Notes under the pieces: generated by a model
What the model was told of the DNA's origin: nothing
Databases searched by the model: none
Seen by the model: only the letters and a program-made list of their open reading frames with translations
Program-made: the position numbers and the translations under genes
Source: Rhodophyticola porphyridii
Lineage (GTDB): Bacteria; Pseudomonadota; Alphaproteobacteria; Rhodobacterales; Rhodobacteraceae
DNA length: 64,000 bases
Assembly: GCF_003688285.1 (NCBI RefSeq)
Contig: NZ_RCNT01000010.1
Location: forward strand, 62,001 to 126,000
Direction of reading: 5' to 3'
Shown here: piece after piece, positions 6,112 to 39,178 of the stretch
Layout of the letters: each line of letters starts with the position of its first letter
Numbering within the stretch: position 1 is the stretch's first letter

Positions 6112-9063
6112 ATGCAAACCGAACCCCAGAAAATCGCGATCATCGGGGGCGGCGTCGGCGCCGTCACCGCGGCCTATGCGATCACCCAACTACCCGATTG
6201 GCAGAACCGGTACGAGATCACCTTCTATCAGCTTGGCTGGCGCCTCGGCGGCAAGGGTGCAAGCGGTCGGAATGCGGAGGAGTACCAGCGTATCGAGGAA
6301 CATGGCCTTCATATCTGGGCCGGTTTCTACGAAAACGGCTTCCGGCTGATGCGCGATTGCTACGAAACCCTGAACAGGACCGGCCTGCGCAGCCCCGAGG
6401 CGCCGCTTGGCACTCTGGAAAAGGCTTTCAAGGGACTCAACCATTTCCTGCTGGCCGATGAGGTGCCGCAGCCGGACGGCACCAAGGCACTTCACCCGTG
6501 GCGGATCGACTTCTACCCCAACAAGGAGAAACCGGGCACGGGCGGCCTGCTGCCCACCCCGTTTTCCTACTTCAGGATGCTGCTGGAGGCGGTCGAAGGC
6601 TGGCTGGGCGGCATGTTGGGGGATACGCAAAGCGAGCTGCCGGCCCGGTTTCAGGCCGAGTTCCGCCGCCGGGGCCTGTCGATGTCGGCCCGGTCGCCGG
6701 TCCACCATCTGCACGCCTATGCCCGGTCGCTTGACGACAATGCCTTCGACCACACGACCGGGCAGTCGCTGCATCTGGCGGCGCTTGCCCGGCACGCGCA
6801 GGATTGGCACCACGACATGCTGGCCGCCGAGGGGCAGAGCGACGAGGCCCGGCGTATGGGGTATCTGATCAGCCTGTCGCTCGCGTTTTTCCGCGGAACG
6901 ATCGACAACGGTATCTTCCGGGCCGGGTTCGATGCGATCGACGATTGGGAGATCAGCGCGTGGCTGCTGCATTACGGGGCCAGCCATGACGCGGTGTACT
7001 CCGCGGTGTTTCGCGGCTGTTACGATTATGTCTTCGGCTACCCGGGCGGGTTGACCGATGATCGCAGCGTCGGCGCGGGTACGGCAATCCGCGGGCTGCT
7101 CCGCCTTGCGTTCACGTATAAGGGTTCGCTGTTCTTCAAGATGCAGGCGGGCATGGGCGACACCATTTTCGCGCCTTATTATCAGGTGCTGAAATCGCGC
7201 GGCGTTCAGTTCATGTTCTTCAACGCCGCCACCAATCTTGCCCTGTCCGAAGACCGAAACAGCATCGCCGCCATCGACATGGTCGAGCAGGCGCAGCTGG
7301 TCTCTGGCACATACGATCCGCTCGTCGACGTCAGGGACCTGCCCTGCTGGCCCTCCGAGCCGCTTTGGGACCAGTTGAAGGATGGCGCGAGGCTGAAAGC
7401 CTCGGGTATCGATTTCGAAAGCGAAAAGGACGTGCCCTCGGGCCGCGGCTACCGGCTGGAACGCGGGCGCGATTTCGATCTGGTGATCATGGGCGCCTCG
7501 CTCGGATCTTTGCACTATCTGACGCGAGAACTGGCGGAGGCCTCGACCCGGTGGAAGGGCATGCTGGATCACGTGCCGACGGTCGCCACCCATGCGGCGC
7601 AGTTCTGGTCGACCCGCACGCCCGAAGAGCTTGGCTGGAACGCGCTGGTGGCCAAGTACAACTCTGGCGATCAGCACGATCTGCAAACCGTCATCACAAG
7701 CTTTGCGGAGCCGCTGGATACATGGGCCGACATGTCCGATCTTCTGCCGCGGGAGGACTGGCCTGAAAACGGCCCGACTTCCATCGCCTATTTCTGCAGC
7801 CCGGCCCATGATGCCGGCGTCGATCCGGGGCCCTTTCCAGACCGCGTCAGGGCGTGGGCCGATTCGGATCTGACACGGATGTGGCCCAAGGCGCGAAAGG
7901 CCGGAAAATTCGATGCCGCGATCCTGTTCGCGAAGAGTGCCCACACGCCGGAGGCGAAGTTCGAGGGCCAGTATTTTCGCGAAAACTTTTATGGCTCCGA
8001 ACGTTATGTTTTGTCGGTGCCCAACTCGGTCCAATACCGTCTGCCGCCCGATGGCTCGGGGTTCGAGAATCTCTATCTCGCCGGCGACTGGACGCGCTGC
8101 GGCATCAATGCCGGCTGCGTGGAAGCCGCGACGATCTCAGGGCTGGTGGCCGCGCGAGGGCTGACAGGCGCCGAGATCGAGGTCGTGGGAGAAGGCGATC
8201 TTGCGCCGGATGCCGGGCCGACGGATGCCACCAAACTGGCCAGCCCCTATGCACAGACCGCGCCCTGGCCGCTGACACCGATGTTCGGAACCGGCCAGAT
8301 CGACGGCTGGTTCAGCTTTCATGCGGTCGACGCCAAGGCGCTGCAGGCGGTCCTGCCCAAGGGCATGACGCTTCACCCCCAGGCACTTACGCCCGAAGGC
8401 ACCCATCCGGTGGCGATCCTGGCCAACCAGCAAGTCGGGGTACGTGCCTCAATCCTGCCCAGATTCCTTGGCTATACTGATTACTACGAGGCGATTATCG
8501 CCATAAATTACGTTCAGGTAGATGGGCACGAGGGCGTCTTCAGTTATCTGCCCAACCTCTATCTGACGAACAACTGGGCGCGGCTCGCCGGGGTCTGGTG
8601 GTATGGATACAACAAGCGGATGGGCCAATTGAACATGGGCAACAGCACCTATTCGGTAGCCTCTCCCGATGGGTCTCCAATCTGGTCGGGGCGCTACCAG
8701 CAGAAGGATTTCGCCCGTCCGCTCGCAACCTCACCGGAGGTCGGCTTGGTGCAATCCATATCGGAGCAAATTGTAGTGTCGGAGGGAAAGTTCAGCCGCT
8801 GGCAGTTCTCCTCCTTCGACTTCAACCTGACATCGGCCTATGTGGCCGGAGTTTCTGCGGAAATCACGGTGAGCGATGCAAATCTGGCCAATATCCCGGC
8901 AGGGCGGATGACCGCGCGGCCGCTGAGGATGGACAGGGGTGGAACCGATAATTCGACTAAACTTCCGGGTGCTTTTCGGATCTGGACAAGCTGGACGTTG
9001 TCGAATCCATTGGACAGTGCTCGGATCGCCCGGCTAGAAGCTGGCAGAACCAGGTTGCCGTAA
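6112..9063 (+). CDS. FAD-dependent oxidoreductase fused to acetoacetate-decarboxylase-like domain
   Basis: 983 residues, with start ATG 6112 after a strong AAGGAGATAT. The N-terminal part (about 1-700) is a Rossmann flavoprotein of the carotenoid/hydroxysqualene desaturase type: IAIIGGGVGAVTAAYA dinucleotide motif, LGGKG, EEHGLHIWAGFYENGFRLM, and a C-terminal FAD motif NLYLAGDWTRCGINAGCVE. From about residue 710 a second domain resembles acetoacetate decarboxylase; the GYNKRMG segment aligns with the GFPK(K) active-site segment of that family, making Lys835 a candidate Schiff-base lysine. Inference: a two-step enzyme that oxidises or isomerises a lipid or polyketide-like substrate and then decarboxylates or otherwise processes a keto acid. 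It is followed after 29 bp by a nucleotide cyclase. The fusion is the key oddity of this cluster; the true substrate cannot be read from sequence. Confidence 0.8.
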   Translation: MQTEPQKIAIIGGGVGAVTAAYAITQLPDWQNRYEITFYQLGWRLGGKGASGRNAEEYQRIEEHGLHIWAGFYENGFRLMRDCYETLNRTGLRSPEAPLGTLEKAFKGLNHFLLADEVPQPDGTKALHPWRIDFYPNKEKPGTGGLLPTPFSYFRMLLEAVEGWLGGMLGDTQSELPARFQAEFRRRGLSMSARSPVHHLHAYARSLDDNAFDHTTGQSLHLAALARHAQDWHHDMLAAEGQSDEARRMGYLISLSLAFFRGTIDNGIFRAGFDAIDDWEISAWLLHYGASHDAVYSAVFRGCYDYVFGYPGGLTDDRSVGAGTAIRGLLRLAFTYKGSLFFKMQAGMGDTIFAPYYQVLKSRGVQFMFFNAATNLALSEDRNSIAAIDMVEQAQLVSGTYDPLVDVRDLPCWPSEPLWDQLKDGARLKASGIDFESEKDVPSGRGYRLERGRDFDLVIMGASLGSLHYLTRELAEASTRWKGMLDHVPTVATHAAQFWSTRTPEELGWNALVAKYNSGDQHDLQTVITSFAEPLDTWADMSDLLPREDWPENGPTSIAYFCSPAHDAGVDPGPFPDRVRAWADSDLTRMWPKARKAGKFDAAILFAKSAHTPEAKFEGQYFRENFYGSERYVLSVPNSVQYRLPPDGSGFENLYLAGDWTRCGINAGCVEAATISGLVAARGLTGAEIEVVGEGDLAPDAGPTDATKLASPYAQTAPWPLTPMFGTGQIDGWFSFHAVDAKALQAVLPKGMTLHPQALTPEGTHPVAILANQQVGVRASILPRFLGYTDYYEAIIAINYVQVDGHEGVFSYLPNLYLTNNWARLAGVWWYGYNKRMGQLNMGNSTYSVASPDGSPIWSGRYQQKDFARPLATSPEVGLVQSISEQIVVSEGKFSRWQFSSFDFNLTSAYVAGVSAEITVSDANLANIPAGRMTARPLRMDRGGTDNSTKLPGAFRIWTSWTLSNPLDSARIARLEAGRTRLP

Positions 9064-15709: not shown

Positions 15710-17175
15710 TCCTTAAAGGCTCTCAGCGCGGCGGTGCCAAACAACTCGGGCTTCACCTGCTGAAGACCGAAGAGAACGAACATGTAGAACTGCATGAGAT
15801 TAGGGGATTTGTCGCTGAAGATGTGATCGGAGCGCTGCGGGAAGCTGAAGCCACGGCCAAGGGCACGAGGTGCAGCCAGTATCTCTTCTCTGTCTCTCTA
15901 AACCCGCCCGAGACGGAGAATGTCCGCGTTGAGGTGTTTGAAAATGCCCTCGCTTCAATCGAGGAGAAAAATGGCCTTAGCGGTCAGCCGCGTGTCGTGA
16001 TCTTCCATGAGAAGGAAGGGCGGCGGCATTGCCATGCGGTGTGGAGTCGGATCGATGCCGAGACGATGACGGCCAAGCCGATGTCGTTCTACAAAAACAA
16101 GCTGCGGGAGGTTTCCCGTCAGCTCTACCTTGAAAACGGCTGGCAGATGCCACGCGGTCTGATTGATCCCAAAGATCATGATCCACGCAATTTCTCTCTG
16201 GATGAATGGCAACAAGCCAAGCGCATGGGTCGCCATGCAGGAGACCTGAAGGAGATGATTCAGGAAGCCTGGGCGGTCTCTGATTCGTCTCAGACGTTCG
16301 CCCATGCGCTCGAAGAACGTGGTCTGTATCTCGCCAAAGGGGATCGGCGCGGGCATGTGGCTGTAACATTCGAGGGGGAAGTGATCTCCATCGCGCGTGC
16401 AACCGGGATCAAGGCAAAGGACCTGAAGTCTCGGATCGGTGATCCCGATGATCTCCGCAATGTCGAGGACACACGCAAACGGATCGGCGAAGATATCCTA
16501 CCCCGCATCAAGTCGCATCTGGACGAGGCACGAAGCGTTGCCAAAGCCGAGAAAGAACAACTTGAACAGCGCCGCGAAGAGATGGCGTATGCCCATGCAC
16601 TTGAGCGCACGCGATTAGACCTCGGTCAAAAGGCGCGGGCCGAGCAAGAGGCCCGCAATCGTGCAGAACGGTTCCGCAAAGGCATGGCGGGCTTATGGGA
16701 CCGCCTCACGGGTCAGCACTCCAAGCTCGTAAAGCAAAATGAGATAGAAGCCCTGTGGACGATGCGGAGAGACCAAGACCAGCGACAAGCCGTGATCGAA
16801 GCGCAGCTCAAAGAGCGCCAAACCCTTCAGCTTGAGATCAGAGCGATGCGGCAACGGCACGCGCAAGCCCTGCGAGAGCTTCATTTTGATGCCGCGAACT
16901 ATCGCCTGATGAAGCGCGGGCAAGAGCCGAAAGCGAAGCCGTCCTTTGAGCGGTCCAAACCGCCCATTACAACGCGACAGACGAAACCACAGCCTCAACC
17001 GCAGCCAGAAGCTCAACGGCAGGCTCCGATTAACCAGCACAAGGAGCGCTTGGATCAGCTTCAAGCGAAGTCCATCCGTCCACCGCAGCGGGAGGAACAA
17101 AACCAAGAGCGCTTGCGGCGCTTGCGCGAGAGCAAGCGCAGCCCGTCCGATAAGGGGCCTGAGCTTGAGCGCTAA
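15706..17175 (+). CDS. MobA/VirD2-type relaxase
   Basis: 489 residues. The N-terminal relaxase domain contains the HxH metal motif in GRRHCHAVWSRID (about residues 103-116) and supporting segments VVIFHEKEG and FYKNKLREVSR. The C-terminal half is a long charged coiled coil (LEQRREEMAYAHALERT) with a Pro/Gln-rich linker. It nicks oriT and pilots the strand in transfer. No fused helicase or primase is seen. The start ATG 15706 overlaps mobC. It converges with the reverse transcriptase gene. Confidence 0.85.
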   Translation: MILKGSQRGGAKQLGLHLLKTEENEHVELHEIRGFVAEDVIGALREAEATAKGTRCSQYLFSVSLNPPETENVRVEVFENALASIEEKNGLSGQPRVVIFHEKEGRRHCHAVWSRIDAETMTAKPMSFYKNKLREVSRQLYLENGWQMPRGLIDPKDHDPRNFSLDEWQQAKRMGRHAGDLKEMIQEAWAVSDSSQTFAHALEERGLYLAKGDRRGHVAVTFEGEVISIARATGIKAKDLKSRIGDPDDLRNVEDTRKRIGEDILPRIKSHLDEARSVAKAEKEQLEQRREEMAYAHALERTRLDLGQKARAEQEARNRAERFRKGMAGLWDRLTGQHSKLVKQNEIEALWTMRRDQDQRQAVIEAQLKERQTLQLEIRAMRQRHAQALRELHFDAANYRLMKRGQEPKAKPSFERSKPPITTRQTKPQPQPQPEAQRQAPINQHKERLDQLQAKSIRPPQREEQNQERLRRLRESKRSPSDKGPELER

Positions 17176-21379: not shown

Positions 21380-21514
21380 AAGCAAAATTTGGCACTCATA
21401 CATCATCTGGGGCAGTGACTATGTGGAACCCCACTATATCGTTTATGTTCTCTTGATGTTCTTTTGCCAACATGTCAGAATGATTCCCAGAGCAGAAAAG
21501 AGGCAAACACCCCG

Positions 21515-22759
21515 ATGAACGAGTTTTCCAGACTGAGACAGGAAGCAGGTATGACCATCCCCGAAGCAGTAGAAGCGCTGGGATACTGCGAGCGCACGAT
21601 CTACCGGTGGGAAAATGGCGACGGCGCACCGCGTAAAGCTGCTCTTGAAATCCTGCGTCAGGCCGCCGCCGGCAAGCCGCAAGCATCCGGAGAATTCAAA
21701 TTCATCGATCTGTTTGCAGGTATCGGAGGCTTGCGAAAAGGATTCGAGCCGATTGGTGGCCGGTGTGTTTTTACGTCTGAGTGGGACAAGTACTCGGTGC
21801 AGACCTACCTAGCAAACCATACCTGCGATCACGAAGTGGTTGGAGATATCACGAAAGTGCCGGTCGAGAGCATTCCTGCCCATGACGTGCTGCTTGCCGG
21901 GTTTCCGTGTCAGCCGTTTTCGATTGCCGGTGTCTCCAAAAAGAACGCCCTTGGCCGTCAACACGGCTTTCGCTGTGATGCGCAAGGTACGCTTTTCTTC
22001 GATGTCGCCCGGATCATCGAGTATCACCAGCCGAAGGCGTTTTTGCTCGAAAATGTGAAAAACCTTGTCAGCCATGATCGCGGCAAGACCTTTGATGTTA
22101 TCCGCCGCGCCCTAACCGAGGAACTTGGCTATAACATTCAGTACCGCGTCATTGATGCGAAGGGCTTTGTACCCCAGCACCGGGAACGCATCTTTATTGT
22201 CGGTTTTCGTGAAAACAACGATTTTGACTTTGATGCGCTCGATATTCCTGATCCGCTGTCAGGCCCAAGGCTTGAGAGCATCCTGCATCCTGAGGACGGT
22301 TCGGAAGCGCCGGAAGACCGTTTCACTGCCGGCAGTAAGGCAAAAGTCATCGATAAATACACGCTCTCCGACCACCTGTGGGACTACCTGCAAAACTACG
22401 CTGAAAAACATAGAGCCAAAGGGAACGGGTTTGGCTTTGGTCTTGTCGGGCCAAGCGATGTCGCGCGCACCCTGTCGGCGCGGTATTTCAAGGACGGATC
22501 AGAAATCCTTGTCAAACAGCGCGGCAAGAAAAACCCGCGCCGCCTGACGCCTCGGGAGTGCGCACGCCTCATGGGTTTTGAAGAGCCCGGTAGCAATCAG
22601 CCCTTCGAAATCCCGGTCTCGGACACGCAAGCCTACAGGCAGTTCGGCAATGCGGTCGTTGTTCCGGTTGTCGAGGCCGTGGCGCGCCACATGCACCCCT
22701 TCATTCTCTCCGAAACGCCTGCGCTGGAAGAGGCAGAGGAAGACCGGGCTGTTGCCTGA
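21515..22759 (+). CDS. DNA cytosine-5 methyltransferase, Dcm/M.EcoRII type, with N-terminal HTH
   Basis: 414 residues. Start ATG 21515 follows AAGAGG; the frame is open for 17 more codons upstream. Residues 1-50 form an XRE-like HTH ([20 protein letters not shown]), as in methyltransferases that repress their own promoter. The catalytic domain has [10 protein letters not shown] (SAM binding), GFPCQPFS with the nucleophilic Cys, LLENVKNL and [11 protein letters not shown]. The [15 protein letters not shown] segment closely follows Dcm, predicting methylation of the inner C of CCWGG. It overlaps the Vsr gene by eight bases. It protects self DNA from the EcoRII-type nuclease two genes on. Confidence 0.92.
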
Positions 22760-23210
22760 CATTGTCGATAAGGAAACCCGCAGCCGGATGATGTCAGGTA
22801 TCAGGGGCAAGAATACAAAGCCCGAGCTTGTTATCCGCAAAGGCCTGCACGCAAGAGGCTTCCGGTTTCGTCTGCATTCATCAAAGGTTCCGGGCAAACC
22901 CGATCTTGTTTTGCCCCGCTATCGTGCGGCTATCTTTGTCCATGGATGTTTCTGGCATAGCCATGACTGTCATCTGTTCAAGATGCCGTCCACAAGGCCC
23001 GACTTCTGGAAGGCCAAGCTTGCGCGCAACCGCGAGCGGGACGAAGAGATTCGCAAATCCCTGCTGGATGCTGGCTGGCGGGTATTGGTGATCTGGGAAT
23101 GCGCACTGAAAGGCAAATACCGCATCAATCTGGATGAGTTGTTCACGAAGGTCACTGCCTGGATCAGGGGAGATGACCTTGAAGGCGAGATCGCCGGGAG
23201 GCCCGTATGA
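22752..23210 (+). CDS. vsr: Very-short-patch repair endonuclease Vsr
   Basis: 152 residues from TTG 22752; the resulting [20 protein letters not shown] start fits the family and GAGGAAG lies about ten bases upstream. Signature segments: [38 protein letters not shown] and [10 protein letters not shown]. Vsr nicks T:G mismatches that arise by deamination of 5-methylcytosine in CCWGG, which matches the neighbouring Dcm-like enzyme. It is sandwiched by overlaps with both the methyltransferase and the nuclease gene. Confidence 0.93.
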
Positions 23211-24442
23211 AGTTCGGAATTCTGGCCGATTTTTTTGAAGGAGCTGGCGCGAAATACCTTACAGAAGTTGAGATCAACAATGCGCGCTCCAACCAGCATG
23301 AGTTTCAGGGTGTCAGTGCTTTCCGCCAGTTCCTTGGAACGCCCGAGGAAAAGATCACATATCCGGCAACGTTTTTCTGGCTGACCGATGAAGAGGACGA
23401 AGAGCCGGTTTCCATGCAGGCTTTTTGCACCTGGAGCGATGTGCGCAGGAACAACCCTGACCGATCTGCTGAGTTTCATCTTTACTACGCCGCAGAATCC
23501 GAAGCTGTCGTGCATCAGGCGCAAGCAGGTGATCTGCTTCTCATTGCACGAAAAAAGAATGACGATGGCCTGCTTGTTATCCTTTGCCCTGCGGATACAA
23601 CAATCACTCAGCAACTTCTCTGGCTGTTTGGACTGGACCTCGTGGGCACGAGGGCGAGTGCAAAGGTCCTTGCTCCTGATGAGAGCATCAGGCTCGGTTT
23701 TGCGGCAAGAGCCGTGCTGGATACTTTGGGCATTGATCTCGAAGAGCCGGAACCGGACGCCCTTGAAATCCTCCTCGACCGCTACGGCCTTGGATTCCCG
23801 CCGACAGCCGAATTCTCACAATTTGCCCGCGATACGGCTGAAGCCGCTGATCCGGTTGATGATCCGGATCAGGCACTGGTCGACTGGATGGATCATGAAG
23901 AGGCCCTGTTTCGACACCTTGAACGTCACATCGTGGCGGATCGCCTGAAAAAGGGCTTTGCTGACAAAGCTGACGTGGATGTTGACGGATTCCTGAAATT
24001 CTCTCTTGGCGTCCAGAACCGCAGAAAATCGCGTGCTGGTTGGGCCTTTGGTCACCACATTGAAGCCGTTTTCCACGCGCACGCGATCCAGCACAAACGT
24101 GAGGCAACAACTGAGAAACGCAACGGACCGGATTTCCTGTTTCCCGGTGAAGCCGAATACCATGATGCCAGCTTTAACACCGCATTGCTGACGATGCTCG
24201 GGGCCAAGACTAGCTGCAAGGATCGCTGGCGACAGGTGCTGGCAGAAGCGCACAAGATCGAGGAAAAGCACCTCGTCACGTTGCAGCCGGGTATTTCAGA
24301 AGCTCAGACTGCTGAAATGCAGGCCGAAAGACTGCAACTTGTGGTTCCAAGGCCGATATATGGCTCCTACCTGCCAGCCCAGCAAGACTGGCTGATGGAT
24401 GTATCCGGTTTTGTTGATTTGGTAAAAGCAAGGCAAGGGTAG
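23207..24442 (+). CDS. EcoRII-type restriction endonuclease
   Basis: 411 residues, close to the 404 of EcoRII. The start overlaps the Vsr stop by ATGA. The C-terminal domain carries the family hallmarks: VQNRRKSRAG, GPDFLFPG, YHDASFN, LTMLGAKTSCKDRWRQVL and KHLVTLQPGIS. The N-terminal 180 residues correspond to the allosteric effector-binding domain of this type IIE enzyme. It is predicted to cut at CCWGG when two sites are engaged. All parts look intact, so the cassette is probably functional. Confidence 0.9.
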   Translation: MKFGILADFFEGAGAKYLTEVEINNARSNQHEFQGVSAFRQFLGTPEEKITYPATFFWLTDEEDEEPVSMQAFCTWSDVRRNNPDRSAEFHLYYAAESEAVVHQAQAGDLLLIARKKNDDGLLVILCPADTTITQQLLWLFGLDLVGTRASAKVLAPDESIRLGFAARAVLDTLGIDLEEPEPDALEILLDRYGLGFPPTAEFSQFARDTAEAADPVDDPDQALVDWMDHEEALFRHLERHIVADRLKKGFADKADVDVDGFLKFSLGVQNRRKSRAGWAFGHHIEAVFHAHAIQHKREATTEKRNGPDFLFPGEAEYHDASFNTALLTMLGAKTSCKDRWRQVLAEAHKIEEKHLVTLQPGISEAQTAEMQAERLQLVVPRPIYGSYLPAQQDWLMDVSGFVDLVKARQG

Positions 24443-24512: not shown

Positions 24513-26366
24513 CTACTGCAACGGGAAGAGGCCAAAGCGTCCTTCATCTTCCCAGCCAGAAAAATGTTCGACCCGAGAGCCCAACTCAACATCTGATGGC
24601 GGGTCAGTGTTTTCAATGATAATGACCTGTTTGTTTCCGGACAGAGTGAGCAGATGCTGGTAAAATTTACTGTTGAGGTTGGTATCCCTCAAGTCGTCTT
24701 CCGAACCTTCAGGCTCCTTGTACGAAAGCAATGGGGAATCCAATATGACGAAGCCAGGATGCGGTAGATCGTTGGCAACGCAATAGTCCAGCAATGAAAG
24801 CGAAAAAGCAGTCTGGGTTACGGCGCGAAGCCCTTTGCCAAACGACGTTCTGGGCTTGCCTGAAATCACGAGGTCTTTGGCCTCAAGATCGAAATGAACC
24901 CTTCGGGTTCCCGGAAACTCCCAGCGTTCGAGCAATGTCTGAACCATCGCAGAAAACGGCTCGACCATTGATGCAGTCAGCCGATAACTGTCCGAAGAAT
25001 CGTTGGTTTTCTTGGCAGTAAGAGCCTCCAAAGCTGCTCGGCGTTCGCCCAAATCACCAAGGCTGTCAAAGAGGCCAATTGCTTCGCGAACATTGGCACG
25101 TTTGTCGGCAAGTTCCTTATATGAGGCGCGTAGTTTTCGCAGGTCCGGAGAAACGACTGCCTCAATCTCTTGCGACAACTCGCCGAGGCGTTCATCAATC
25201 TTCGGGAGGGTTCTCTCAAGGGCTTTGGCTTCTTTGTCCATAATCTTGATTGTGCCGGTCAGTTCCCTTTCCTTGTCCTCAATTTTTTGTATTTCGGATG
25301 CAGCCGCTTTAACGACGATGTCAACATTTCCATCGCAGATCGCATCGGGGTCATGATGTTCCGGCAGTGCCCCGCAAATGGGACAAGTCTCGACCTCTAG
25401 GGTAGAAAAAATATTTCCGGCTTCTTGAATTCCGACAAGACGTTCCTGATCAGAGTTGTAGTGTTGCTTCAGCAGTCTGAAGCGTTCTAAAAGTGTAGCA
25501 ATCTCTGCAAAACGCGCGCGGTTGGTTTCCCTTCTGGCCATCAGTTTGCGACGATTTGACGATAGCTCCCTGAAGTGGGCTTCAGAAGTGGAGAGTTGTT
25601 CTGAACGCACTGCAAGTGCAGAGTCCAAGCGCTCTTCCTGCTTGGAAAGCTCGTCTTTCGAGCCGGAGATTTTTGCGATGCGCTTTTGCGTGTCAGCAAT
25701 AAGCTGGTCCAAAAGTTCAAGCTGAGCTTCAGCCTTTTGTTCGGCAGGGGTTCGCTGGGATTGCGCGACAAGTGCCGAGTCATCAACACCGGTCAATAGC
25801 ATTCGAAAAACAGAGGTGTTGGCAGTATCCGCCGTATAGTTACCGTCGGAAAGCGGGGAGCGCTTTTGAATGATTTCCTCTTCATTCACCACGACGAGGC
25901 GAGCAAGATTACGGAAGCTCAGATTTTGAGTATCGCCCCGTGCATTCTTTTTGACCTTTCTTCCGCTGAGCCCGATCTTGGACAGGAGGAACGCAGAAAG
26001 GTTGTCCTCGTCGCGTTCGCTGTGGGTCTCAGAAAGGATGCGCCCTTCTTCTTCGGGCAAAGCATCGGAATAAAGCCCTTCAAAAATCTCAAACGCGCCA
26101 CCATCCATGCTCCGTCGTACCGTGTGTTCGCTGCCATCCTCGAAAGTCATCGCCAACATTGCCTGACCGTAGCCGCTGGATTGAGGGATGTCGGTCAGAG
26201 GCCCCTTTCCCCCGAGCATGAAGTCTATCGCTTCAACGACAAAAGATTTTCCGGTGTCCGAAGCGCCGTAAATCACGTTCAGGCCCGACTGAAACGACAC
26301 AATCGCGGGTTCCCGGTCTGGACCGTGAAAGGACAGGCTACTGATCTGAAATCCAAGATAATTCAT
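24513..26366 (-). CDS. ABC-3C system SMC-like ATPase (DUF3732-like)
   Basis: 617 residues. P-loop GASDTGKS (about 34-41) follows the start; the middle is two long coiled coils separated by a Rad50-like hook CPICG (about residue 330); the C-terminal part holds a Walker B (GFVILDSPLL). This is the architecture of the ATPase of ABC-three-component conflict systems. It is the last gene of a minus-strand operon and starts in a TAATG overlap with the middle-component gene. Inference: senses DNA ends or invading DNA and licenses the effector. Confidence 0.85.
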   Translation of the reverse strand: MNYLGFQISSLSFHGPDREPAIVSFQSGLNVIYGASDTGKSFVVEAIDFMLGGKGPLTDIPQSSGYGQAMLAMTFEDGSEHTVRRSMDGGAFEIFEGLYSDALPEEEGRILSETHSERDEDNLSAFLLSKIGLSGRKVKKNARGDTQNLSFRNLARLVVVNEEEIIQKRSPLSDGNYTADTANTSVFRMLLTGVDDSALVAQSQRTPAEQKAEAQLELLDQLIADTQKRIAKISGSKDELSKQEERLDSALAVRSEQLSTSEAHFRELSSNRRKLMARRETNRARFAEIATLLERFRLLKQHYNSDQERLVGIQEAGNIFSTLEVETCPICGALPEHHDPDAICDGNVDIVVKAAASEIQKIEDKERELTGTIKIMDKEAKALERTLPKIDERLGELSQEIEAVVSPDLRKLRASYKELADKRANVREAIGLFDSLGDLGERRAALEALTAKKTNDSSDSYRLTASMVEPFSAMVQTLLERWEFPGTRRVHFDLEAKDLVISGKPRTSFGKGLRAVTQTAFSLSLLDYCVANDLPHPGFVILDSPLLSYKEPEGSEDDLRDTNLNSKFYQHLLTLSGNKQVIIIENTDPPSDVELGSRVEHFSGWEDEGRFGLFPLQ

Positions 26367-26866
26367 TAAACACTTCCTGCTGCACCGGATTCATCCTGAA
26401 ACTCAGACACCCAGTTTTCCAGTAATTGGTCCATTTGCTTGTCGAATTCCTGATCGTCCAATTGATCGGAATACTTCGCTAGCCAACTGGCTCGGTTCAT
26501 CAACTGCCGGATATAGGACGACTGCAATGCATCAACAAAAAATTTGGAGGATTCCCCTGCACGATAGAAAATACCACTTTCTGTCGCCACTTGTTGCACC
26601 AGTTCACGGGAGATCATCAGGCGTAGCGCGGCGTGCACTGACTTACGGCGAACCTGCGTGATCGGGCTGACAATTGGAGTCGCAGGGTGCAGATCAGGAG
26701 GGCCGTCCAGCACACTTGTCCTGACGATGAGATAGTCCAATGCTGTCAATCGTTGAATATCCAATGCTTTAGGGAAGCAAGCATACAGGTTCAGGACTGC
26801 GCGAATGCCGGTTTCCAGGGGCCCGTTGAAAGGGAGGTCTGGCGACAATCGGTCTACTTTTTCCAT
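26366..26866 (-). CDS. ABC-3C middle component
   Basis: 166 residues. FNGPLETGIRAVLNLYACFP near the N-terminus, YLIVRTSV and LHPATPI match ABC-3C middle components, which are winged-HTH-like adaptors between ATPase and effector. It overlaps the effector gene by 13 bp upstream and the ATPase gene downstream, so the three are translated together. Confidence 0.78.
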   Translation of the reverse strand: MEKVDRLSPDLPFNGPLETGIRAVLNLYACFPKALDIQRLTALDYLIVRTSVLDGPPDLHPATPIVSPITQVRRKSVHAALRLMISRELVQQVATESGIFYRAGESSKFFVDALQSSYIRQLMNRASWLAKYSDQLDDQEFDKQMDQLLENWVSEFQDESGAAGSV

Positions 26867-27948
26867 GTCAGCCTCCCATCATTTGCCAACTGATGGCATA
26901 TTCCTCTGCGGTCTTTTGGAAGTGCGCTTTTGTTCAACGGGTGAGCATCAAGAGCCAGCGACTGTGCGGAGTCAGTTACTGCGACGACCCGTGCATACCC
27001 ATCCGCATGGTCACTTTCACAAGTGTCTGCGACGCCGTCATATATTTCATCTTGGAGGCTTTCGAATGTTCCTGGATCGGCCTTTTCCCGGACAAAAACA
27101 CGCAGGGATTCTGCGTGATAGAATGCCTCCCGAGAGCGTCCGAAATGCTCCTTCAGGTTGGACCAGGCGTTTAGATCGGTAGCGCATGAAATTGATTGGC
27201 TTTTGTGATCCGCATAGGCGTCAAGAAGTTTTTTTGTATAGGCGATTTCATGGGGCTCAATCTCGTCGGGCGGTGATTCCGCAACCGGCCTGGAAGGCAA
27301 GCCGCCTCCGAACCTACCTGGATAATACGGTGTCTTTTTGTGTGCTTCGATCACGCTTCTTGGAGCGGGTGCCGAGAATATCGAAAAGTCAAAATCATTG
27401 ACGTAGGTTTCAAAGTCGCCGGTTAGTTCGACGCTCTGCGTAGTCGTGATCTTGTCGGCGATCATCTTCTGCCATTTTTCGATCACCTCGGTCTTGAGAT
27501 TGTCGCTGTTCGCCAAGAGTAAATCGAGGGTGGTCGACGGGCCTTTGGGGGCGATGAATGCGCATGACCTCGGAGCCACATAAACCCCGTTGAAGGAGTG
27601 CCATAGGATTTTGCCGATCTCCGGCGCGACAACGCCAAAGCTCAAAGGGTTTTTGTAATGCTTGCACTGATGGTTGTCCCATACTCCCAAGAGCTTCTTG
27701 TCATCTGTGAAGCCCGCGACATCGATGCCTTTGTCGCCTGGCCCGGTTGGTCTCATCACGCTGAAATATTCATCCTTGAGTGAGTGAATCCATTCGTCGA
27801 TGAAGGTCTCCCAAACGCCAGAATCGTAAGTCTGGATTACAAGAACCGGGTCAATCTTGGGACCATTCTCGAACTCTTGTGCCGTCAGAATCGTGGCCGA
27901 TGCTAGATCTTTGACGGCATTTTCGAAATCGAGGGTCGTGGCTTCCAT
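26854..27948 (-). CDS. ABC-3C effector with restriction-endonuclease-like N-terminus
   Basis: 364 residues. The N-terminal part shows GDKGIDVAGF followed by LGVWDNHQCKHYKNPL, i.e. an acidic residue and a QxK-like element as in Mrr/PD-(D/E)xK nucleases; EVIEKWQKMI follows. The C-terminal part (about 240-364, with LNAWSNLKEHFGRSREAFYHAESLRVF and a terminal QLANDGRLTW) resembles the conserved C-terminal domain that docks effectors to the complex. Inference: the DNA-cutting toxin of the system. First gene of the operon; its promoter should lie in 27950-28050. Confidence 0.7.
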   Translation of the reverse strand: MEATTLDFENAVKDLASATILTAQEFENGPKIDPVLVIQTYDSGVWETFIDEWIHSLKDEYFSVMRPTGPGDKGIDVAGFTDDKKLLGVWDNHQCKHYKNPLSFGVVAPEIGKILWHSFNGVYVAPRSCAFIAPKGPSTTLDLLLANSDNLKTEVIEKWQKMIADKITTTQSVELTGDFETYVNDFDFSIFSAPAPRSVIEAHKKTPYYPGRFGGGLPSRPVAESPPDEIEPHEIAYTKKLLDAYADHKSQSISCATDLNAWSNLKEHFGRSREAFYHAESLRVFVREKADPGTFESLQDEIYDGVADTCESDHADGYARVVAVTDSAQSLALDAHPLNKSALPKDRRGICHQLANDGRLTWKK

Positions 27949-28049
27949 ACGTGCATGATCTCAAAATACGGTTCGCGAAAGCTTCATATTGCCACCATAT
28001 CAGGTGTTCCGGCAACAACAATCTACTAAAGATAGAAGAATGCTGGTTC

Positions 28050-28525
28050 ACCATGGACGTCCATTGATGGCACCAATGCGGCCTGTCAAGGGCCCTGTCG
28101 TCGGCGGGGCAATCGTGTTCCATCTTCGGCAAGATGGCGCCATCCAATCCGCGCAGGGTTGGTCTCCATGAATTGGTCTGGATGAAGTCCTCATGGGGGT
28201 ATCGGTGGGAGCTCGAAGGCTCCCCTGATTGGTGATCGAACGGCCAGTCGTTCGTGCATGGTTCGGTGCAGGTGGAGAGGCACGTCTCCAAGTCCCACGA
28301 GTGGGTTTCAAGGGGCGCGATAGCCCCTGATCTTCCTGAAAGGATCGATGGGTGCAGGAAGAGCGAAGTCTCCTGCGAGTGTTTGACCGACGATACGGTC
28401 TGCTGGCTCTGCAATGGGTTCAACACCCTGGAAGAGCCATGGCCGGAGGGATGCAACGGGAGCGCGCAGCGGGCTCCCTTGCCAAGATTGCGGTGTACTA
28501 CACCGCACATCTTGCGGTTCGCAGA
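28050..28525 (+). ncRNA. Candidate large structured RNA (tandem hairpins)
   Basis: This gap between the ABC-3C operon and the 28624 gene has no credible protein gene but can fold into at least twelve successive helices. Clear ones: 28120-28137 (7 bp), 28144-28162 (7), 28201-28229 (11, bulged), 28237-28254 (6), 28273-28290 (6), 28294-28305 (4), 28311-28328 (6), 28329-28346 (6), 28354-28376 (8, bulged A), 28385-28400 (5), 28404-28439 (7 plus inner 4), 28453-28482 (10, bulged C), 28483-28514 (14, bulged C). Three stems contain T-G pairs that are U-G wobbles on the plus strand but would be A-C mismatches on the minus strand, which favours plus-strand transcription. No T-run terminator ends it, so it may be a long leader of the next gene or be processed. 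I cannot match it to a named RNA class. Confidence 0.65.
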
Positions 28526-28623
28526 TAACGTCTTTCTAGCCCTGCAACAAAAATGTGGATGAGTATCCTATGCTGCCATGCACATACGCGCAGAGAAATG
28601 CTCTCGATGGTATGATCTGGCTC

Positions 28624-29133
28624 ATGGCCAAGAGACCCCCGTCAGAGTGCGAGCCCTTTACACAAGCAATGAAAGACCGAGTGAACGAGCTTTCCGAGAG
28701 AACGGGCTGGGGTGCGACGGCTGTCCGCAATCATATCGAGAGGGCGAAGCTCCCAGGGTGGGAGCATGCCTCACAAGGTCGCGTGAATGCGATCATGAGC
28801 GGCCAGTCTCAAGCCACAGTGGTCAGCACCGTTTACAATGCTGTCATTGCCGTGTTGGAGGATGCTTCACGCTCGGGCCTCGCGCTTGATACGCACCAGA
28901 AAGATGTCCGCCGGGTGTTGGTTGATGATGGCTTTGCGTCTGGCGTTCAACAGCTCTTGGATCGTTTCCACCATCTATCCACGATGAAGGCGTTGGCAGC
29001 GCTTGGAGCTCCCTCCGATCTATCCCACATCACCGTCGCGCGCGTAGCAAGCGGACAGCAAAAGAGCCTCAAGAAGAAGCATTATAATTTCCTCTCTTCC
29101 GTCCTCGAAAAATTAAGGAACGGTAAACTTTAG
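28624..29133 (+). CDS. Unknown protein downstream of the structured RNA
   Basis: 169 residues from ATG 28624 (MAKRPPSECEPF); in-frame alternatives at 28555 (GTG), 28570 and 28612 have no better ribosome site. ELSERTGWGATAVRNHIERAKLPGW may form a helix-turn-helix; the rest is helical with a basic end (KSLKKKHYNFLSS). Not recognised. Immediate adjacency to the hairpin array suggests an RNA-binding or RNA-controlled protein, but this is inference. Confidence 0.55.
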   Translation: MAKRPPSECEPFTQAMKDRVNELSERTGWGATAVRNHIERAKLPGWEHASQGRVNAIMSGQSQATVVSTVYNAVIAVLEDASRSGLALDTHQKDVRRVLVDDGFASGVQQLLDRFHHLSTMKALAALGAPSDLSHITVARVASGQQKSLKKKHYNFLSSVLEKLRNGKL

Positions 29134-34470: not shown

Positions 34471-36099
34471 ATGAACATGCATTTCGACCACACGAAGGAT
34501 CGTTTCGGATCGGCGCGTTTCGACGGCCCCAAAGACGCCAAACGTGGTGGGCTCATGGACGGCAAGGGCAACCGTATCGGGTATCTTAAAGGGCGTCCGC
34601 TGTCGCTGAACACCGACGCGCCGCTCCTCACGGTGGCGGGAGCCGGATCAGGTAAGATGCGCGATCTATTGGCCAGCACAATTCTGGCCAATTCAACACA
34701 ACGAATGTTCGTTCTCGACCCGCGCGGAGAAATCGTAAGCGTTACTCTTCTAGCCTTTGCGTCGGCGGGCGTCCCAGTGTGGATTTGGAACCCGACTGCA
34801 ATGCACGGTCTCGCGCAGCATCGGGTTCAGCCGCTCGATATCCTGCGCCTTGATAGCCCGGCCTTTCACGCGGACTGCAAGTTCATCGCTGAAAGCCTGA
34901 TCGCGGTGAACCATTCCTCTAACGGACGCTACTTTGAGCTCCGCGCGCGGGAGTGGCTTGAGAACATTATGAAGGCTTTGGTGGAACGAGACGGATATGT
35001 CTCGTTCCCCAGTTTGTTTCGAGCAATCGGTCTCATCGAAACCGATCCGAACGCGTGGGCCGACATGCTAGAATTCATGCTGGCCTCAAGCATTGATGGT
35101 GTTCGCCGCACGGCGGGCGAAATGCTTGCCAAACAACAGGAAAGCCCACGCGAGTTCGGCGGTATCGTCGGCGAACTCTATGCTTCTTTGAACTTCCTTG
35201 ATGACCCGATGCTTCAAGCTTCTCTGGAGCACGCAGACTTTTCGTTTTCCGATATGTGCGATCCGACGCGTCCTGCGTCAGTATTCATCGTCGTACCCAT
35301 AGAATACGTCTCACTCTGGGGGCCGCTGCTCAGGGTCATGTTTACCGTGCAATTGCTCTACAAGTCCCGCGCGCCATCTGCGCCGCGTATAGCCATGATT
35401 GCAGATGAGGCGGGTCAACTCGGTCACTTCGAAGCGCTTCTTCGTGCCTTCACATTTGGTCGCGGTGCCGGTGTTCAAGCCTGGGCGCTGTTTCAGGACA
35501 TTGGTCAGATCATCCGCAACTTCGGCCAGCCTGCGCTGCAAGGTTTCATGGGCTCCGCCGCCATGCGGCAGTTCTTTGGTGTCCGTGACTACAACACGGC
35601 CAAGATGATCTCTGAGATGCTCGGCCATGAAACGCTCGAATTCGACGACACTCTCAAACAGGAAGCGGCGCGACGCGAGCGTGTGAACGCGGCCATGGCT
35701 TTTATGAATGGCGATGATCCGTTCCGGGCATTGAACAACATGCGCTCGCACCGCTTTGGCGAAGAGCATCGCGCGAAGCAATCAAGGCCGCTCATGACGC
35801 CGGATGAAATCTTGGCCATGCCCGACGACCGTCAAATCCTCTTCATTTCAGGCCACAACCTTCGCCCGATCTATGGTGAAAAGATTCCTTATTTCACACG
35901 GCGGGAGTTCGCCGGAAAGTTTCTGCCTAACCCATTCCACCCGCCCTATGACTGCATGCTTGTGCGGCGGGCTTTCGGAAACCGGAGCGTAAGGGTGATT
36001 ACTGAGCGCGTACCCCCCGAGTTCGCGCATCTTCCGCAATATGCTTCAGGCACATGGAAATACGTCGAGGGCTTTCGCCCAAAACTACGGAGAGCATGA
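34471..36099 (+). CDS. VirD4/TraG-like type IV coupling protein
   Basis: 542 residues. P-loop AGAGSGKMRD (about 51-60), FVLDPRGEIVS after it, a Walker B (IAMIADEAGQLG, about 308-319) and FQDIGQI, QFFGVRDYNTAKMISEMLG and a C-terminal LISGHN-like (ILFISGHNLRPIYGEKIPYF) segment, all typical of VirD4. The N-terminal membrane helices are absent; the small membrane genes just upstream may substitute. It links the relaxosome to a secretion channel, which must be supplied in trans. Confidence 0.85.
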   Translation: MNMHFDHTKDRFGSARFDGPKDAKRGGLMDGKGNRIGYLKGRPLSLNTDAPLLTVAGAGSGKMRDLLASTILANSTQRMFVLDPRGEIVSVTLLAFASAGVPVWIWNPTAMHGLAQHRVQPLDILRLDSPAFHADCKFIAESLIAVNHSSNGRYFELRAREWLENIMKALVERDGYVSFPSLFRAIGLIETDPNAWADMLEFMLASSIDGVRRTAGEMLAKQQESPREFGGIVGELYASLNFLDDPMLQASLEHADFSFSDMCDPTRPASVFIVVPIEYVSLWGPLLRVMFTVQLLYKSRAPSAPRIAMIADEAGQLGHFEALLRAFTFGRGAGVQAWALFQDIGQIIRNFGQPALQGFMGSAAMRQFFGVRDYNTAKMISEMLGHETLEFDDTLKQEAARRERVNAAMAFMNGDDPFRALNNMRSHRFGEEHRAKQSRPLMTPDEILAMPDDRQILFISGHNLRPIYGEKIPYFTRREFAGKFLPNPFHPPYDCMLVRRAFGNRSVRVITERVPPEFAHLPQYASGTWKYVEGFRPKLRRA

Positions 36100-36676: not shown

Positions 36677-36874
36677 GAGGCCGTCGCGAGCGCGCATAAC
36701 TCTGAAAGCCGCTGTGAATTTGGCTTACAGGGCAAGGGCGTGTTATAATTGGAATTGAAGTATCGGCTTTTTGCTTGGCCAGTATTGGGCCGCACTAGCC
36801 ACTTCCCACGCAAGCGACGGCGAGACGACACACCCGATGCAAACGCATTGCATCGGCAAAGGAGGTCTTGTGCC

Positions 36875-37195
36875 ATGAACACAGACAACAGGAATCATGA
36901 AACCGTCGAACGTGCTGCCATTTCTGGTCAGCACAAGAGCCTTCAGGTCGATGTAGAACGCTACCAAGCATATCTTGATGATCCAGAAATGACTGATGCC
37001 GAGCGCCGTCAGGTCATCGAAGCTCTCTGGGTCATCGTCAGCTGTTTTGTGGAGTTGGGATTTCAGGTCCATCCGACCCAGCAGGCCTGTGGAAAAGTCG
37101 AGAATGCCCTTGATGTTGCGGGTAATTCGGATTCGACTGAGGTACAATCAAGGCATAGCGAAAGCGCAGAAAAGCCAAGCGCACCCGAGCTGTAG
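36875..37195 (+). CDS. Small protein upstream of the recombinase
   Basis: 106 residues from ATG 36875, nine bases after AAAGGAGG. It is acidic and helical (YQAYLDDPEMTDAERRQVIEALW). It lies 24 bp before the large recombinase on the same strand, so it may be an accessory or directionality protein; this is positional inference only. Confidence 0.55.
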   Translation: MNTDNRNHETVERAAISGQHKSLQVDVERYQAYLDDPEMTDAERRQVIEALWVIVSCFVELGFQVHPTQQACGKVENALDVAGNSDSTEVQSRHSESAEKPSAPEL

Positions 37196-37219: not shown

Positions 37220-39178
37220 ATGGCAGTAGAATGCATTGAGACCCAACCCGAAACCGATGTAACCGCGCTGATCTACTGTCGTGTGTCCTCGGTAAAGCAG
37301 CGCGTCGAAGGTTCGGGCTTGCAGAGCCAGGAACAGCGGTGTCGTAAGTTCGCAGAAGAGAACGGATGGGACGTCGAAATGGTGTTCCCCGACGATGTGT
37401 CGGGTGGCGGCGACTTCATGGATCGCCCCGGTATGCGCGCGATGCTGGCCTATCTCGATGCTAAGAAAGGCCAACCTTATGTCGTGATCTTTGATGATCT
37501 GAAGCGTTTTGCCCGTGATACGGAGTTCCATCTCAAGCTGCGCCGCGAACTCGCGACGCGCGGCGCGCGCGTCAAGTGTCTGAACTTCGAGTTTCAGGAT
37601 ACGCCAGAAGGCCGCTTCTTCGAGGTCATGATGGCTGCGGCTGGTCAGATGGAGCGCGAGCAGATTGCGCGTCAGAACAGCCAAAAGAGCCGCGCACGCG
37701 TTGAGCTTGGTTACTGGGTTTTTAGAGCTCCAGTCGGCTACAAATACGTTCCCGACAAGGAGCGCGGGGGAAAGAGGCTCGTGCCGGACGAGCCGTTGGC
37801 ATCGGTTGTACGGCAAGCGCTGGAAGGCTACGCCAGCGGACATTTCGGCTCGCAAGCCGAAGTGCAGCGGTTCTTGGAAGCCGACCCTTACTTCCCGAAA
37901 GACAAAAAGGACGGGACGCTCCGTCCGATGACGGTCACCCGCCTTCTCAAAAAGGTGGTCTACGCTGGATATGTTGAAGCCCCCAAATGGGGTATTTCCG
38001 TGCGCAAGGGAAAGCATGAGGGCCTGATCTCATTCGAAACCCATCAGCAAATCCTCGACACAATCGAAGGCAAGAAACGCCGCCCTGCGGCGCGCAAAGA
38101 CTTTAATCAGGATTTCCCACTCAGGGGACATGTTCTTTGCGATTGCTGCGGAAATGCGATGACTGCGGCGTGGTCAAAAGGTAAGTACAAGCACTATCCC
38201 TACTACTTCTGTGTGACGCGTGGCTGCGAAGCCAAGAGTAAAACTGTGCCACGCACAAAGATCGAAGACGGCTTCGCAGAAATCATGAAGAAGCTGCAAC
38301 CTGCGTCCAGCTTGTTCAAAGTGGCGAAGGCGATGCTTTGCGATGCGTGGGACATGAGGCTGGCTGAAGCGAAGGCCGCGAAGGATGAACTTGGCCGACA
38401 GCTCAAGGCCATCGAGGCACAGATCGACCAACTATTGGATCGGGTTATCGAGGCGACCAATCCAAGCGTCGTAAAGCGCTATGAATCGAAGATCGATGAG
38501 CTTGAACGTCAGCGGATCATTCTGAATGAACGTCGCGATAAAATCCTGCCGCCAAAGGGACGGCTGGAGGATTGTATCGAACTCACCTTGAGATTTCTCT
38601 CAAGTCCTTGGTACTTATATGAAAATGGGAGTTATGCGCTGCGCCAAACTGTCCTCAGATTGGCCTTTGCGGAGCCCCTTAGGTATAGCCCGGAAGGGGT
38701 GTATCGAACTCCAACTTTCACCTTTCCTTTCAAGGTGTTAGCGGGAATTAACAGTCCAAAAAGCGAGATGGTGCGCTCGGCGAGACTCGAACTCGCACGG
38801 GAGTTACCCCACAGCGACCTCAACGCTGCGCGTCTACCAATTCCGCCACGAGCGCACGTGATCTCCGGTAGGCCGCGGCTGAATACCCGAGGGATCAGGG
38901 GTTGTGAAGGGCAAAAAAGCGCAATCGATCATGTCGTCCCGCCGCGCCGCTTCCGGCCGATTATCGCAAGGGTGACAATCGTCAGAACCCCCAGCACCAC
39001 GACGGCGCCACCCACCTCCGGAGTTTCGGGAAAAACGACCCGGTTGATCCGGCGCCCGGGCAGCAATGTGAAGAGCCCGGCGATTCCCAACGACTGCCAA
39101 TATAGTTCCCGCATCGTCAGGCTGTGCTTGGCCGGATCGCGCCGCCGTGCGGCCTGCACCCCGCGCCAAAGCGTGTAG
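37220..39178 (+). CDS. Large serine recombinase (integrase) reading into host tRNA gene
   Basis: 652 residues as the frame stands. Catalytic domain: LIYCRVSSVKQR with Ser23, VVIFDDLKRFARD, GQMEREQIARQNSQKSRARVE. A recombinase domain (about 175-290), zinc ribbon CDCCGN...YYFCVTRGCEAK (about 310-340) and coiled coil (about 380-445) follow, as in integrases of this class. After the FTFPFKVLAG segment (about residue 510) the frame continues through antisense of tRNA-Leu(GAG) and into host DNA for some 135 residues. The natural C-terminus is probably near 38.77 kb; the tail is a consequence of insertion. It is the likely integrase of the island. Confidence 0.88.
   Translation: MAVECIETQPETDVTALIYCRVSSVKQRVEGSGLQSQEQRCRKFAEENGWDVEMVFPDDVSGGGDFMDRPGMRAMLAYLDAKKGQPYVVIFDDLKRFARDTEFHLKLRRELATRGARVKCLNFEFQDTPEGRFFEVMMAAAGQMEREQIARQNSQKSRARVELGYWVFRAPVGYKYVPDKERGGKRLVPDEPLASVVRQALEGYASGHFGSQAEVQRFLEADPYFPKDKKDGTLRPMTVTRLLKKVVYAGYVEAPKWGISVRKGKHEGLISFETHQQILDTIEGKKRRPAARKDFNQDFPLRGHVLCDCCGNAMTAAWSKGKYKHYPYYFCVTRGCEAKSKTVPRTKIEDGFAEIMKKLQPASSLFKVAKAMLCDAWDMRLAEAKAAKDELGRQLKAIEAQIDQLLDRVIEATNPSVVKRYESKIDELERQRIILNERRDKILPPKGRLEDCIELTLRFLSSPWYLYENGSYALRQTVLRLAFAEPLRYSPEGVYRTPTFTFPFKVLAGINSPKSEMVRSARLELARELPHSDLNAARLPIPPRAHVISGRPRLNTRGIRGCEGQKSAIDHVVPPRRFRPIIARVTIVRTPSTTTAPPTSGVSGKTTRLIRRPGSNVKSPAIPNDCQYSSRIVRLCLAGSRRRAACTPRQSV
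38769..38855 (-). tRNA. tRNA-Leu(GAG)
   Basis: 87 nt with a long variable arm as in class II tRNAs. The acceptor stem is GCGCTCG/CGAGCGC, the anticodon loop TTGAGGT (anticodon GAG, codons CUC/CUU), the T arm has GTTCGAGTC, and CCA is encoded. Its 3' end points into the island, the usual geometry for tRNA-associated integration. Confidence 0.95.

Follow-up and report, generated by a model that had tools for sequence, protein, structure and literature searches.

Mobilization of Salmonella Genomic Island 1 (SGI1) needs a self-encoded RNA, the sgm-sRNA, which matures from a longer transcript and corresponds to its 3′ end (PMC9299015). The sgm-sRNA adjoins the mobilization genes, and 5′ deletions are tolerated (PMC9299015). 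SGI1 appears to be the best-documented parallel to the element described here; the two are likened by island anatomy, not by sequence or structure, and for the element we only infer a role in transfer. Both lie in mobilizable genomic islands, which here carry a relaxase, a type IV coupling protein (T4CP), a large serine recombinase (LSR) and a tRNA edge. As in sgm-sRNA, a longer transcript may carry the functional part at its 3′ end, behind a partly dispensable 5′ part, and the RNA would not be a classical antisense sRNA (PMC9299015). The machinery differs, since SGI1 of Enterobacteria uses MpsA, a tyrosine-recombinase-like relaxase, whereas the island of the element has a MobA/VirD2-type relaxase (PF03432) and a serine recombinase.

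Large structured RNAs are rare in bacteria, and new classes have tended to uncover new biology. GOLLD, ROOL and OLE are, like the element, large and highly structured bacterial noncoding RNAs whose role is at best partly known (PMC12286853). Unlike them, the element matches no Rfam model and its hairpins change order between copies, so a precise multimeric fold is not expected. CsrB and RsmZ share with the element an array of hairpins that exposes a short purine-rich loop motif. The element differs from them in its mostly CGA loops, its constant 3′ module and its mobile-island context, and it was not assigned to this GGA-loop sponge class because its commonest six-base loops are GCGATA and GCGAAG, with AGGAAC third; GCGAAA also recurs. 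Integron attC arrays, oriT sites and single-strand origins are likewise structure-conserved DNA hairpins beside mobile-element genes with a fixed edge, but the element is unlike them in length, in hairpin number and in the wobble pairs of its body. Integron attC was rejected, as there is one element per island as a rule and it is not repeated between cassettes.

Fold, strand and distribution of the element

We analyzed a stretch of 64,000 nucleotides from Rhodophyticola porphyridii, referred to here as the window. From its fold, homologues and covariation, the whole structured element was placed at 28040..28530 on the plus strand. The initial annotation had reported a hairpin-rich element at 28050-28525. 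The hairpins are found where it placed them, and 28020-28540 of the plus strand has a folding energy of -222 kcal/mol (z -3.8), which none of 100 shuffles equaled. Its extent holds in part: the region is hairpin-rich from about 28040, but homology runs only from about 28119-28141 to about 28530. The minus strand of the same region folds with a z of -4.3. Both strands fold with low z, so energy alone does not choose the strand.

For 28119-28530 (plus strand) there are more than 150 homologues, nearly all in Alphaproteobacteria. The same genome has two more copies, with 78% and 70% identity. BLAST found the element in 31 of 245 genomes of the order, and the covariance model found it in 29 of 245. 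It was also present in 25 of 385 genomes sampled from the class and in 9 of 299 sampled from the phylum, the last including three weak matches outside the class. A 24-base core pattern matched at least 116 stretches in named genomes, nearly all Alphaproteobacteria among the matches listed; the non-alphaproteobacterial matches come mostly from draft metagenome bins, which may be misassigned. Named loci are biased toward copies with the exact core pattern. Genomes carry one to three copies, usually one per island and two in G479 and G469, and plasmid copies were seen in Rhizobium, Bradyrhizobium, Devosia and Tritonibacter. Culturable carriers include Roseovarius nubinhibens ISM (L133) and Thioclava marina (L085). 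A phage RNA was ruled out, as no match was found in 50,697 phage records and IMG/VR gave one contig with the element.

To measure covariation, we aligned the 3′ module of 25 copies. This alignment has 37 consensus pairs, of which 22 show two-sided changes. A model from it was used to align 99 distinct copies, and in this structure-fitted alignment 97.7% of cells were paired (85.5% when shuffled), two-sided changes occurred in 28 of 37 pairs (shuffled mean 12.9) and the covariation score was 0.299, compared with 0.093 for shuffled and at most 0.045 for slid alignments. The first alignment, of 25 copies, was not structure-fitted and agrees on covariation. Stems of the 5′ part are also supported in a full-length alignment of 16 collinear copies, where a two-pair switch from C-G to G-C occurred among them.

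In the plus orientation there were 83 G-U cells and 10 A-C cells, which identifies the plus strand as the structured strand and disfavors the minus strand as an RNA. The earlier argument from U-G pairs is thus borne out. Comparison of the homologues shows that the plus strand is under selection for stem retention. The share of G-U is low, at 2.4% of cells in the 3′-module alignment and 1.6-3.4% in the element sets, compared with 9.1% in RNase P RNA. Several stems outside the terminal hairpin normally hold a G-U pair.

The absence of a credible protein, as first proposed, was confirmed among the homologues: at most 28 of 111 keep any one frame open across 330 nt, and anchor-to-anchor distances take all values modulo 3. 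On these grounds a protein-coding gene was ruled out. A search of the window with the Rfam 15 covariance models gave no family above the gathering cut-off at the element and only tRNA elsewhere. With lax filters, 27900-28700 gave nothing below an E of 5.6, and three homologous loci gave tRNA only; neither tRNA nor tmRNA was found at the site. A search of mainly open-access literature gave no account of this RNA. The view that this is a likely undescribed structured RNA of no known class therefore agrees with the comparative data, in that homologues exist, stems covary, no frame is kept and Rfam has no match. The element very probably represents a genuine new structured family.

Modules, edges and the terminal hairpin

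Profiles of twelve modules along 118 copies were used to read the modularity of the element. Modules m and n are constant, whereas the preceding ones vary. In the window copy, m and n form a constant 3′ module at 28382..28527 (plus strand), which scores 150.7 bits with the covariance model R1; this constant end is about 146 nt long and terminates in CATCTTGC. Before it lies a 5′ mosaic at 28119..28381 (plus strand), whose order and content differ among homologues. It has a leading hairpin at 28119-28138, followed by modules that start at 28141 (b), 28162 (e), 28192 (g), 28234 (h), 28257 (i), 28300 (j) and 28345 (l). The hairpin-rich stretch at 28040..28118 (plus strand) cannot be aligned to homologues and is private to the window copy. 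Among the 118 copies, hairpins i and l swap positions around j, module d is present once or twice, and other modules are gained or lost. Hairpins with a CGA or GGAA loop number 3.2 per element and 0.8 after a crude shuffle, a comparison that is indicative only. At L189, in the same genome, a lone module b lies at 7376, 2.3 kb upstream of a full element at 9663, with cargo between them, as though the cargo had split or duplicated an element.

The terminal hairpin CAAGATTGCGGTGTACTACACCGCACATCTTG (28483..28514, plus strand) was recognized as an inverted self-match and covaries almost without wobble. As a reference for wobble use, RNase P RNA of 30 genomes in the same order went through the same pipeline as the element, whose body was represented by three sets of 30. 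RNase P RNA had 119 one-sided and 354 two-sided cells with 9.1% G-U, the body 63 and 78 cells with about 3.4% G-U, and the terminal hairpin 5 and 121 cells with about 0.5% G-U. Relative to two-sided changes, wobble outside the terminal hairpin is at least that of RNase P RNA. These counts suggest that the body varies as an RNA does, with few G-U, and that the terminal hairpin varies like a DNA palindrome, so this last hairpin may act partly at the DNA level.

Inside the terminal hairpin lies the palindrome TGTACTACA (28494..28502), a candidate operator for a dimeric DNA-binding protein. At least one further GTANTAC palindrome occurs within 160 bases past the 3′ edge in 31 of 110 loci, compared with 0 to 4 in intervals of equal size elsewhere, and nearly all are at +19 to +50. 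In 29 of 36 pairs their flanking bases equal the hairpin's own, where 15.9 were expected and 0 of 5000 shuffles did as well; some of the loci are related and thus not independent. Covariation without wobble, together with a center that co-varies with palindromes just downstream, makes the terminal hairpin probably also a DNA operator. The box classes TTGTACTACAA and TGGTACTACCA may resemble the operators of FadR-type GntR regulators.

When pairs of loci were compared, homology stopped at one or the other edge of the element. In L074/L180 and L173/L177, the 5′ cargo is common up to about +30 (+29 to +35) and the sequences then diverge. In L074/L173 and L177/L186, the element and its 3′ side are common and the cargo is not. 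The 3′ edge of the window copy (GCGG..., 28515..28530, plus strand) is where homology to most relatives ends. In five loci (L079, L106, L135, L138 and L150), a tandem duplication of the following sequence begins exactly at this edge. In L079, L081, L106, L135, L138, L142 and L150, tandem repeats with short units, mostly about 60 bases long, begin at this edge or near it, and in several of these loci each unit ends in another copy of CATCTTGC.

On the 5′ side, the gap to a co-directional upstream gene is below 60 nt in 11 of 40 cases, with a minimum of 5, compared with 0 of 65 where the upstream gene points away. Behind co-directional genes there is thus rarely room for a promoter of the element's own. 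No sigma-70-like promoter was found near the window copy and no intrinsic terminator downstream of it. Of 109 loci, 12 have TTWTCCACA, which resembles a DnaA box, at their 5′ edge, and in each of them it is on the plus strand; controls of 80-97 gave 0-1. The loci are L080, L090, L097, L107, L111, L115, L116, L120, L132, L175, L179 and L186, and some of these sites are half of an inverted repeat, TGTGGA-TCCACA. Another palindrome, GTGTA-CC...GG-TACAC, lies on the 5′ side of L074, L099, L128, L173 and L185. It stands before a minus-strand gene with an apparent small DNA-binding (ribbon-helix-helix-like) domain, which is the start of several cargo operons.

Position in mobilizable islands

In the window, the left part of the island spine holds the relaxase gene (MobA/VirD2-like, PF03432; 15706..17175, plus strand). 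An ArdC-like anti-restriction protein is encoded between it and the type II restriction-modification cargo, which comprises a C5 methyltransferase, Vsr and a restriction enzyme (21464..24442, plus strand). The same interval codes for a protein with a weak match to the reverse-transcriptase domain (PF00078; 17190-18854, minus strand). Immediately 5′ of the element is a Lamassu operon of LmuA, LmuC and LmuB (ABC-3C CTD6/MC2; 24513..27948, minus strand). On the right is a small gene at 28555..29133 (plus strand), with an ATG candidate near 28625, whose product has no Pfam match. Both neighbors are as initially described. The spine continues on the plus strand with the T4CP (VirD4/TraG; 34471..36099), a small spine protein (36749..37195) and the LSR (37220..38768), whose frame stays open to 39178, into the opposite tRNA-Leu(gag) gene (38769..38855, minus strand). 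This tRNA gene is the right edge of the island and the likely integration site. No long direct repeat of the 3′ part of the tRNA was found in the 94 kb examined, so the left edge was not located. The element was ruled out as an att site, because the site of the LSR is the edge tRNA, about 10 kb away.

The same order of relaxase, defense cargo, element, coupling protein, LSR and tRNA recurs in other islands. Of 38 loci with 5 kb or more of downstream sequence, 33 have a same-strand T4CP or LSR downstream, compared with 2 of 49 in the upstream control; all downstream T4CP matches are on the plus strand, as are most LSR matches. Tallied by hand from the tables, 20 of 24 sites whose contig is long enough have a same-strand LSR 3-18 kb downstream, G171, G021, G207 and G231 being the exceptions, and 20 of 25 have a same-strand relaxase 3-29 kb upstream. 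In L157, the element is about 350 bp from the relaxase gene. LSR and element occur together in 23 genomes where about 5 were expected (Fisher p = 5e-16, inflated by shared ancestry). About half of the LSR sites do not have the element, so it is not required by all such islands.

Defense genes are on the 5′ side. Neighbor statistics were derived from simple open-reading-frame calls in 8-kb stretches. The first gene on the 5′ side gave 370 PADLOC model matches across 86 proteins (1e-8), including type I, IIG and II methyltransferases, whereas the first gene on the 3′ side gave matches to 4 models across 94 proteins. These figures count model matches, not proteins, and many of the models are restriction-modification proteins. 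Comparison of the loci shows that position and orientation of the element in the islands are fixed. Beyond this one island, the element recurs as part of the spine of mobilizable islands with a serine recombinase, and the Lamassu operon is just cargo of the island in the window.

No single protein partner gene was found to travel with the element. The small downstream protein was rejected as a partner because it lies beside only 5 copies, the window copy and four others (L122, L128, L158 and L172); members of its family repeat a motif like RTGxGxxxLL. T4CP and LSR belong to the spine and are not obvious partners of the RNA. Serine recombinases are less often linked to tRNA genes than tyrosine recombinases. 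In about half of the loci examined, tRNA genes of several kinds lie antisense at the LSR end. The kind differs by island (Leu, Thr, Arg, Ala, Val and others). The LSR frame is open into the opposite-strand tRNA in the window, in L189 (14519-16363; tRNA 16131-16205) and in L087, L097, L119, L148, L161 and L185.

Possible roles of the element

The acting molecule is likely to be the RNA. The full explanation that we propose, with a little less than even confidence, is a spine-encoded structured noncoding RNA that serves island transfer or maintenance. The element would usually be transcribed within a longer RNA, as its 3′ part, or else be read from a promoter located in the cargo gap, because its 5′ edge often abuts a stop codon, too closely for a promoter to fit. 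With no intrinsic terminator present, a protein bound at the terminal palindrome, or processing there, may define the 3′ end of the RNA. The hairpins, many with GCGAUA, GCGAAG or AGGAAC-type six-base loops, could be repeated docking sites for a protein. The resulting ribonucleoprotein, active through the 3′ half of the RNA, would serve the island as sgm-sRNA serves SGI1.

The main rival, which we consider rather unlikely, is a role of the element as single-stranded DNA in conjugative transfer. It would be an oriT or single-strand origin with plus-strand hairpins and a nick or strand-transfer point near CATCTTGC/G. Relaxase and coupling protein in mobilizable islands agree with such a role, as do the fixed 3′ edge with tandem duplications from exactly there in five loci, the plus-strand TTWTCCACA at the 5′ edge in 12 of 109 and a 5′ edge that needs no promoter. 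The wobble asymmetry fits too, because a one-strand DNA hairpin tolerates G-T better than A-C; however, G-U as the norm in several stems outside the terminal hairpin is usual for RNA. In addition, the relaxase gene is 3-29 kb off and has its own mobC-like upstream region, and a dozen conserved hairpins over 400 nt far exceed the needs of known oriT and sso sites. Looking for an oriT by similarity gave no second copy of the 3′ edge near the window relaxase. An attC-like site at which defense cassettes dock or are exchanged, with the RNA-like fold serving recombination of the DNA, seems quite unlikely. Homology between loci breaks at either edge, defense genes lie on the 5′ side only, and the stray 5′ module upstream of a full copy in the same genome has cargo between the two. 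The same breakpoints, however, would arise from homologous recombination within a conserved element; a site-specific junction would not give 5′ breaks at varying positions (-396 to -515 and others), and there is no dedicated integrase except the LSR, whose own site is the tRNA.

Two further readings concern the hairpins as repeated units. An RNA with many binding sites could titrate, as a sponge, a single regulator of the host or the island, as CsrB/RsmZ do with CsrA; this would explain the many similar six-base loops per copy and the tolerance for hairpin order and number. We regard it as improbable, because most loops have CGA and not the GGA of CsrA sites, and because the constant 3′ module implies more than a set of equal sites. 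Mosaic composition and intergenic location would also suit palindromic repeats without function in trans, for example mosaic repeats of intergenic DNA or an insulator that keeps transcription of cargo and spine apart. This is highly improbable for an element with 1-3 copies per genome, a fixed island context and a constant 3′ module whose loops are conserved across orders.

A dual nature would combine RNA and DNA roles: a modular RNA, with hairpins freely exchanged between islands, would end in a DNA operator, mark the port at which defense cassettes are swapped and help to move the island. We consider this unlikely. To our knowledge, no described RNA or recombination site combines a modular RNA, a terminal operator and a cassette port.

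If the structured RNA serves the island as proposed, it tests whether conjugative islands commonly need an RNA of their own. The element spans many alphaproteobacterial families, and its sequence alone flags islands with restriction-modification and other defense genes, which makes it a probe for such islands. It is also a case of natural hairpin shuffling, in which module order and number vary and the 3′ end is fixed. An unusual arrangement was seen in L192 (G479), where two inverted elements at 7013-8733, with their 3′ edges facing, flank a single gene of 444 aa beside the recombinase.
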